Source: Bacteroidota bacterium (GTDB lineage: Bacteria > Bacteroidota > Bacteroidia > Chitinophagales > Chitinophagaceae). From it: a stretch of DNA of 64,000 nt. Both the position numbers and the translations under genes were made by a program. The notes under the pieces are model-generated. The model did not search any database. It was not told the DNA's origin and worked only from the letters and a program-made list of their open reading frames with translations. The stretch is from assembly GCA_018268015.1 (NCBI GenBank), contig JAFDXJ010000050.1:248001-312000 (forward strand). Reading direction: 5' to 3'. Each line of letters opens with the position of its first letter. The stretch's first letter is position 1. Positions 51,430 to 53,256 of the stretch are shown here, piece after piece.

Positions 51430-52137
51430 ATGGGAAAAAGATTGGAAAAAAATCACCCTCATTTTCGCTTAAGAGGAAAAGAAGTGATGCGTGTGGAAGC
51501 TTTAAGTGATGCCGTTTTTGCTTTTGCGGTTACATTATTAATTGTTTCCCTGGAAGTGCCAAAAAGTTTTGATGAATTACTTGTGACCATGAGAGGCTTT
51601 TTTGCATTTGGCATCAGCTTTCTTTTATTAATGATTATATGGTATGAACAAAATATTTTTTTCAGGCAATATGGAATGCATGACCTGGTTTCGATTGCCT
51701 TAAATTGTACGTTGATATTTTTGGTTTTGTTTTATGTCTATCCATTAAAATTTCTATTTACACTCTTATTCAGCAATCAAATTTATGGGCCGGGAAAATC
51801 ACCATTTATCATGGAGCAAGGTGATATAAACAACCTGATGTTTATCTATGGGTTGGGTTATATGTCTATTTACTTTTTGTTTTTTTTAATGTATTTACAC
51901 GCCTATAGAAATAGAGCTTATTTAGATTTGAATGCCGTGGAATTATATGATACGAAAACGAAATTGTATAAAAATATCATCATGATCAGTATCGGTATGA
52001 TTTCAATTATACTGTCAAAAACTTTATCAGAAAACCTACTGGGACTATCCGGATATGCCTATTTTTTACTTGGCCCGGCATTATTCCTGTTTTATAGTTA
52101 TCGTGGGAAAAAGAAAAGAAATTTGAAATTAGATTAA
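51430..52137 (+). CDS. TMEM175-like (DUF1211) potassium channel protein
   Basis: The 235-residue protein has six predicted membrane segments. Its first helix carries RVEALSDAVFAFAVTLLIVSLEVP-type sequence (about 21-44), the family hallmark RxxxFSD with leucine in place of phenylalanine. Bacterial TMEM175 proteins form tetrameric K+ channels from one six-helix domain. It has no close operon partner; a near-consensus box TATATTTC (51414-51421) sits nine bases before the ATG. Confidence 0.88.
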   Translation: MGKRLEKNHPHFRLRGKEVMRVEALSDAVFAFAVTLLIVSLEVPKSFDELLVTMRGFFAFGISFLLLMIIWYEQNIFFRQYGMHDLVSIALNCTLIFLVLFYVYPLKFLFTLLFSNQIYGPGKSPFIMEQGDINNLMFIYGLGYMSIYFLFFLMYLHAYRNRAYLDLNAVELYDTKTKLYKNIIMISIGMISIILSKTLSENLLGLSGYAYFLLGPALFLFYSYRGKKKRNLKLD

Positions 52138-52179
52138 CCATAATGAATTATCTTTTCTATTTATAGATATTTGTCAATA

Positions 52180-53256
52180 ATGCCATTTCACCCTTTCATT
52201 AATCAGCGCGTTCAAAAGTATCTAGATCAAAAACGGCCATTCAAAGAAAGTGGCCCAACAAGAAAAATACGCTTGCATGCCAATGAAAATGGAATAGGTT
52301 CACCCTCTCTTCAATGGTACCATCGCTTTACCGAAGATGAAGATATGGAACAATTCAAATTAGCCATTGCCGGCATTAAAAATGTTCCAAAAGAAAATCT
52401 ATTCATCACAAACGGGAAATATTATTTTTTTGAATTGTGCATACGTATTTTCTGCGAAGCTGAAAAAGATAAAATTATTTTTTGCACACCGGTTCCCGAT
52501 GAATTAATGGATTTAGCCAAATTGAATGGAATTGATTATTTAAAAGTGCCTTTAACATCGGATCAGCAATTGGATATGATCCATTTAGAAAAAGTGGTCA
52601 ATGAAGAAACAAAATTAATATGGCTTTCTTCACCGAATCATTTTACCGGGAATAATATGCATCATGAAGATATTGAAACGATCCTCAATAATTTTTCCGG
52701 CCTTGTTATCCTGGATGAATCATACATTAATTTTTCAAAACACAGGTCTTTCCTCCCGGAATTGAAAGAATACCCTAATTTATGTATTTGTCAAAACTTT
52801 CATTATGCCTGGGGGATGGCGGGATTGGAAGTTGAAATTGCTTTTGCATCCGTTGATATTATTTCTATACTCAATCAACTTCCCTTTTCTAAACACCTCA
52901 ATAAACCTACAATGGAAATTATCAGGGATGCATTACAAAATATCCAGGATGTAAATTCAAATATTAAAACGATCGTAGCCATGAGGAATGCCATGGGAAG
53001 GGAGTTGGAACACTTTTCATTTATAGATAAGGTTTATTCATCTGATGCTAATTTCTTATTGATTAAATTCAATAACATACCACTTGTAAAAGAATACCTG
53101 AAAGTCAATCAAATTGAAATTCATGATCTTACTCAGGAAAAATTTTATGAGCATTGCCTTCGAATTTCTATTGGCTCGGAGAGAGAAATAAAATCACTTC
53201 TGGATGTTTTTGAAAACATAGAATTAAAATTGAGCGAAAATGTGCCGGATAAATAA
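52180..53256 (+). CDS. HisC-like aminotransferase homologue lacking the PLP lysine (probable pseudoenzyme)
   Basis: The 358-residue protein has the fold-type I aminotransferase framework of histidinol-phosphate aminotransferase: LHANEN near 27, SPNHFTG (Asn153), LDESYINFS (Asp179, Tyr182), AWGMAGL (210-216) and CLRISIG with substrate-type Arg328. Where HisC has SKA[FW]GLAGLR, this protein reads HYAWGMAGLE, so the Schiff-base lysine is Tyr209 and the phosphate-binding arginine is Glu217. The GSDE phosphate loop is GKYY (79-82) and the PLP-stacking tyrosine is lost in TPVPDEL (103-109). It should not bind PLP covalently. The ATG at 52180 is preferred to an upstream TTG that falls inside a promoter-like GATATTTG (52166-52173). 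Confidence 0.85.
   Translation: MPFHPFINQRVQKYLDQKRPFKESGPTRKIRLHANENGIGSPSLQWYHRFTEDEDMEQFKLAIAGIKNVPKENLFITNGKYYFFELCIRIFCEAEKDKIIFCTPVPDELMDLAKLNGIDYLKVPLTSDQQLDMIHLEKVVNEETKLIWLSSPNHFTGNNMHHEDIETILNNFSGLVILDESYINFSKHRSFLPELKEYPNLCICQNFHYAWGMAGLEVEIAFASVDIISILNQLPFSKHLNKPTMEIIRDALQNIQDVNSNIKTIVAMRNAMGRELEHFSFIDKVYSSDANFLLIKFNNIPLVKEYLKVNQIEIHDLTQEKFYEHCLRISIGSEREIKSLLDVFENIELKLSENVPDK

Follow-up and report, generated by a model that had tools for sequence, protein, structure and literature searches.

Introduction

The window analysed here, a stretch of 64,000 nucleotides from a Bacteroidota bacterium of the Chitinophagaceae, lies on contig C45 of a 2.9 Mb genome (G000) that is 99.9% complete. 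It contains a gene for a HisC-like protein in which the residues that define the aminotransferase appear to be missing. The question raised by this locus is whether such a protein can still be the enzyme (EC 2.6.1.9) and, if it is not, why the gene has been kept. As argued below, we hold it somewhat better than an even chance that the product is a HisC-derived, catalytically dead pseudoenzyme, retained for a role other than catalysis that probably consists in binding another protein. No published report of a HisC pseudoenzyme was found in the open-access literature.

Results and Discussion

The hisC-like Gene and Its Family

The frame opens with the ATG at 52180 and is coding from 52180 to 53253, followed by the stop codon; a TTG at 52171, 9 nt 5' of the ATG, is a possible alternative start. 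It is a single open frame across all 358 codons. The top family for its product was TIGR01141 (hisC), with 197 bits and an E value of 4e-58, and the nearest relative in the PDB was E. coli HisC (1fg3, E 5e-32). Judged from its sequence, the window protein is plainly a HisC homologue, as the preliminary description of this DNA had concluded for a 358-codon frame that it found intact, and both the family score and the HisC tree (see below) indicate descent from HisC. The score lies under the TIGR01141 equivalog cut-off of 276.55 bits, below what is demanded of the enzyme. In an alignment of 39 canonical relatives, 115 columns show an invariance of 95% or more, and the protein retains 60 of them. 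Most of the HisC relatives that it has in the GTDB collection belong to the Chitinophagaceae. The features of the locus are collected in Table 1.

Table 1. Features of the hisC-like locus, in window positions.
Feature	Position	Strand	Evidence
Upstream neighbour, bacterial TMEM175-type K+ channel	51430..52137	+	Pfam TMEM175 E 1.5e-14; PDB 6hd8 E 8e-47
Orphan HisC-derived probable pseudoenzyme, 358 aa + stop	52180..53256	+	ORF, family and structure-model evidence
N-terminal substrate lid, residues 17-26: canonical YSSARDEFxG to QKRPFKESGP	52228..52257	+	Family alignments; pLDDT
Cofactor-phosphate loop, residues 79-82: GSDE to GKYY	52414..52425	+	Family alignments
Residues 106-109: YGMY (PLP-stacking Tyr110) to PDEL	52495..52506	+	E. 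coli and family alignments
His154 replacing Asn157	52639..52641	+	E. coli and family alignments
Residues 179-182, DESY; cofactor residues Asp179 and Tyr182 kept	52714..52725	+	Family alignment
Residues 208-217, HYAWGMAGLE against SKAWGLAGLR of the enzyme; Tyr209, Glu217	52801..52830	+	Alignments, codons
His315 replacing Arg322, one of three substrate-phosphate ligands	53122..53124	+	Alignments, PMC4703992
Arg328, equivalent of Arg335, kept	53161..53163	+	Alignments

Active-Site Residues

The window protein was aligned to E. coli HisC, whose numbering is used for the enzyme. The Schiff-base Lys214 was found replaced by Tyr209, and the PLP ligands Arg222 (which binds the cofactor phosphate), Ser213, Asn157 and Tyr110 by Glu217, His208, His154 and Pro106, respectively; Ser213, Lys214 and Arg222 are kept in all 39 canonical family members. 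In addition, Arg322 is replaced by His315, A84 by K80 and D85 by Y81. Asp184, Tyr187 and Arg335 are retained as Asp179, Tyr182 and Arg328, the last being the sole survivor among the substrate-phosphate ligands and lid of the enzyme. In the family alignments F50 of the window protein is aligned with Y55 of the neighbouring subunit.

The preliminary description had noted the loss of the lysine and the phosphate arginine, the GKYY loop, the missing stacking tyrosine and the three retained residues, and every one of these readings holds on the E. coli and family alignments. By the same alignments the erosion goes further than had been described, Arg322, Asn157 and the N-terminal lid being lost as well. 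That description had also named two grounds on which the loss of the lysine would fall, namely another lysine in the Schiff-base position and a sequencing error. No replacement lysine was found by alignment, and the window protein shares with its Lys-less relatives no lysine that is foreign to the family; Lys80 of the GKYY loop was considered and rejected, the corresponding residue being Thr/Ile in the relatives G011/G298. Sequencing error or chance was ruled out as far as the sequence allows by the Tyr209 codon, TAT, which is at least two changes away from AAA or AAG, by the many coordinated losses and by related losses in the closest relatives.

Predicted Structure

An AlphaFold2 model of the window protein built from 26 sequences reached a pLDDT of 79 and a pTM of 0.78, with pLDDT below 50 at residues 20-43 and 45-49, that is, in the lid and the following loop. 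A canonical control modelled from the same rows gave a pLDDT of 85 and values below 50 only at residues 47-53. The best Foldseek matches in the PDB were HisC of E. coli and K. pneumoniae (E 7e-25 to 1fg3), with model-to-HisC TM values of about 0.76-0.82. The window protein is thus predicted to adopt the class-I aminotransferase fold, and the HisC fold assigned to it earlier is borne out at the level of prediction.

Histidine Pathway Genes in the Window Genome

HisG, HisD and the IGPD domain of HisB were each searched for in G000, and none of the three was present; the searches recovered these genes in 13 of 14 control genomes. The pathway in which a HisC enzyme would act is therefore missing by these three markers. 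Since G000 is devoid of HisG, HisD and HisB, the window protein is an orphan HisC, and synthesis of histidinol phosphate is not expected in the cell; the organism is predicted to be a histidine auxotroph. The earlier remark that the gene sits outside any his cluster was correct and understated the case, as the three genes are missing genome-wide.

The possibility of a paralogue next to a normal HisC was rejected, no second HisC being present in G000. Four other class-I aminotransferases were found. In this class active sites are formed across the dimer, and the window protein could be pictured as the inactive partner of one of the four. A precedent is LCB1/SPTLC1 of serine palmitoyltransferase, which has a PLP-enzyme fold, is devoid of the PLP lysine and is functionally required as the heterodimer partner of LCB2 (PMC3794620). 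LCB1, however, works beside an active homologous partner, whereas G000 has no close active paralogue: all four are remote from HisC, scoring 69-126 bits with the hisC model, his+ relatives hold comparable ones, and no aminotransferase gene is linked to the window gene. Such a partnership is considered quite unlikely.

The Substrate Site

M. tuberculosis HspAT binds the substrate phosphate through Arg337, Arg346 and Asn176, and its imidazole side through Tyr25 of the lid, Asn103 and Tyr127 (PMC4703992). The window protein has other residues in place of Arg337, Asn176 and Tyr127, and its lid can no longer be recognised; Arg346 alone still has its counterpart, Arg328, and even this is lost in the relative G331. 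The preliminary description had suggested, from Arg328, that a phosphohistidinol-like ligand site may survive and that the protein could be a sensor or binding protein for such a ligand. The substrate lid has gone, as have two of the three residues that bind the phosphate, and the surviving site is not supported. The sensor is hardly credible: apart from the retained Arg328, it would have lost its imidazole-side tyrosine too, and its ligand would not be expected where HisG, HisD and HisB are all missing. Since a single one of the three phosphate residues survives, and is itself replaced by Asn in G331, regulation or scaffolding is favoured over ligand sensing.

Relatives with an Orphan HisC

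Seven genomes of one genus of the same family, g12 (G011, G135, G206, G298, G331, G382 and G403; 2.2-3.1 Mb), are likewise without HisD, IGPD and HisG and have kept a HisC with an eroded active site. In the same genus, G257 and G358 possess HisD, IGPD, HisG and a canonical HisC, and G420 possesses HisG and a canonical HisC. Retention is not universal, as two his-less genomes of the family (G012 and G081) have no close HisC.

The lid YSSARDEFxG and Arg322 are lost in all the his-less HisCs, and the GSDE and YGMY loops are altered. The lysine is lost in three of the seven g12 proteins, being Arg in G011 and G298 (the same AGG codon) and Ile in G382 (ATT); it is kept in G135, G206, G331 and G403, that is, in four of the eight his-less proteins when the window protein is counted. 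G011 and G298 also share His at the Asn157 position with the window protein. The G298 gene is split between the ends of two contigs, and its two parts were read separately. The search for comparable substitutions in related genomes, proposed in the preliminary description, thus had a positive outcome.

The gene order in G011 is ispH-hisC-pabA, and in G257 hisG-hisD-hisC-hisB is found between the same ispH and pabA flanks; hisC of G011 occupies the former his operon site. At each of the 43 canonical loci examined from the searched genomes hisD adjoins hisC, and it does so at none of the his-less loci. A scan of the genome contigs with the window protein alone recovered no relative. With the family alignment, 80 loci were obtained, of which 76 were fully canonical and three had small changes in the YGMY motif with the lysine kept; G011 was the only Lys-less one. 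The Lys-less proteins of G011 (303.6 bits) and G382 (292 bits) pass the TIGR01141 cut-off and would be annotated as the enzyme.

Two of these proteins may be described separately. In that of G382 (G382:C27:34143-35102; L054:6126-7235), which passes the NCBIfam hisC cut-off, the lysine is replaced by Ile and the phosphate arginine is kept. In that of G331 (G331:C67:7568-8572; L053:5554-6600) the lysine is kept and Asn is found at Arg335, a position occupied by Arg in 39 of 39 canonical relatives, which represents a different route of erosion.

In the lysine-keeping proteins some chemistry may persist, and a new or altered enzyme has to be weighed, working with non-covalently held PLP or PMP or with a remodelled His-rich pocket (His48, His154, His208 and His315) for another reaction. 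Chemistry may have persisted first in the four lysine-keepers, the Asp179 and Tyr182 equivalents are kept in eight of eight his-less proteins, and the four histidines stand at positions that are N, N, S and R in canonical HisC. Lys-less enzymes of the same fold are known, such as ColD, which has no PLP lysine and uses a histidine. Against this, the phosphate loop has been lost together with R222, N157, S213 and Y110, and the lid and the pocket positions 80, 108, 237 and 238 differ between G011 and G298, which is ill-suited to a conserved active site. We regard a new enzyme as rather unlikely.

Prephenate dehydratase (PF00800) was absent from G000, G011, G135, G206, G331 and G382, which are likely to be phenylalanine auxotrophs as well. 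This bears on a further explanation, that the protein was retained for aromatic aminotransferase activity in Phe/Tyr synthesis and that the lysine losses were later and secondary. The bifunctional HisC documented in B. subtilis and T. maritima (PMC9309667) resembles the present case in having a role beyond histidine, but that extra role is a catalytic one, for which the lysine is required. Such activity is not expected of the Lys-less members, and the dehydratase is missing in six of the eight his-less genomes, three lysine-keepers included, so that this explanation is very improbable; a role that does not depend on catalysis remains the preferred reading.

Selection on the Lys-less Genes

For the Lys-less pair G011/G298 the dN/dS of hisC was 0.21 (95% bootstrap interval 0.14-0.30), above nearly all of the neighbouring genes (0.03-0.20) and far under 1; it was 0.35 in the lid region and 0.17 elsewhere. 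The his-less pair with lysine, G206/G403, gave 0.10. The Lys-less hisC of G011/G298 is under purifying selection, and loss of the catalytic residue by the shared K to R replacement was thus followed by constraint. For the window gene itself, which has no close relative (dS of about 2.5 against G011), the evidence of maintenance is indirect. Random substitutions were introduced into a canonical hisC in 300 simulated runs until identity had fallen to 43%, and this neutral drift produced a mean of 15 stop codons (minimum 6), whereas the real frame has none. Because the frame is open where drift would leave about 15 stops, the window gene has very probably been maintained by selection, and the earlier judgement that it is a maintained frame and not a decaying one is supported by the simulation and by the value for G011/G298.

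These data bear directly on the alternative of a relic in slow decay, i.e., the leftover hisC of a deleted operon, functionless and drifting, with its frame open by luck or recency. The very long branch of the window protein, the loss of formerly invariant residues in all his-less lineages, the reduced genomes and the absence of any hisC from some other his-less relatives would all suit a relic. Nevertheless, it is unlikely in view of the stops expected under drift, the constraint on the Lys-less pair and the sparing of the same single gene in eight genomes. Since the Lys-less form is still under selection in two relatives, the HisC-derived protein very probably has a second job.

Phylogenetic Trees

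In the HisC tree all eight his-less proteins were placed together (99/99), and the window protein joined G011/G298 (100/99) on an extreme branch of 4.27 changes per column; the eight were still grouped after removal of 68 eroded columns (95/95). In the SMC tree, G011/G298 were found with the his+ G257/G358, the other five his-less g12 genomes with the his+ G420, and the window genome outside genus g12. With the SMC data the AU test rejected the grouping of all eight his-less genomes (p 0.0008) and, less strongly, that of the g12 seven (p 0.024), and the HisC data did not reject an SMC-like arrangement (p 0.10-0.32). Species relationships taken from SMC alone are thin evidence, and G000 is long-branched in both trees. 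Replacements shared by the window protein and G011/G298 amounted to 4 of 15 jointly changed columns and those shared with G331 to 4 of 17; without excess over G331, they do not decide between a single origin and parallel loss. Because the two trees disagree, the number of losses is uncertain: two or three independent losses of the pathway with parallel erosion are possible, as is gene transfer.

Neighbouring Genes

The TMEM175-type gene ends 42 nt before the hisC-like start, and the two genes may, from their arrangement, share a transcript; the linkage was not seen in the other his-less genomes. A defence-system context was discarded, as PADLOC gave no match for the window protein or its adjacent neighbours.

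A conserved protein of 348 residues is encoded directly 3' of the orphan hisC in G206 (G206:C5; L064:5563-6609), G331, G382 and G403, followed by the gene for a LysE-type exporter. The G206 copy had no match in Pfam, and no such gene adjoins hisC in the window, in G011 or in G135. In G078 a second HisC-like domain (G078:C26:15285-16268; L097; 192 bits) was found in an open frame of 637 residues, perhaps a fusion.

A Proposed Role without Catalysis

In the scenario that we favour, the histidine pathway was lost in the lineage and hisC alone was spared. The protein would fold as a class-I aminotransferase dimer, would neither bind PLP through a Schiff base nor carry out Schiff-base chemistry; it would act through its surface, as a scaffold, regulatory subunit or partner protein. 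This interaction was probably a second role of HisC already during the enzyme stage, and an interaction that predates the catalytic loss would account for the sparing of hisC alone. The loss of the lid and Arg322 in eight of eight proteins, and of the lysine in two or three lineages, suits a second role that never needed catalysis.

Among known systems, HisC itself (TIGR01141; PDB 1fg3, 1gew) shares with the window protein the fold, the framework motifs and the Asp184, Tyr187 and Arg335 equivalents, with descent shown by the tree; it differs in possessing Lys214, Arg222, Asn157, Ser213, Tyr110, Arg322 and the lid, and no pathway for it was found in the genome. PriA/SubHisA2/SubTrpF of the Actinomycetaceae is similarly a histidine-pathway protein kept amid his/trp loss, under relaxed selection and with a changed active site (PMC5404923). 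It is, however, an isomerase, and its retained forms keep one activity, whereas the catalytic residue of the window protein is gone. LCB1 and the retained PriA are the nearest precedents.

Conclusions

A broader reading, offered tentatively and with rather less than even confidence, is that HisC of the Chitinophagaceae serves a conserved function other than catalysis, one that has repeatedly outlasted the pathway: hisC alone would have been spared in as many as three independent losses and, while under selection, would have been stripped of its substrate site before losing the lysine as well in two or three lineages. One practical consequence concerns annotation, as family models label the Lys-less proteins of G011 and G382 as active HisC, and auxotrophs would thereby be credited with a step of histidine synthesis. 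The locus amounts to a natural experiment in which HisC catalysis is separated from other roles, the pathway and the catalytic residue being gone and the gene kept. If confirmed, related genomes would offer a graded series of proteins (canonical, with the substrate site lost, with the lysine lost), and a textbook biosynthetic enzyme would turn out to have a second function that suffices by itself to maintain the gene.
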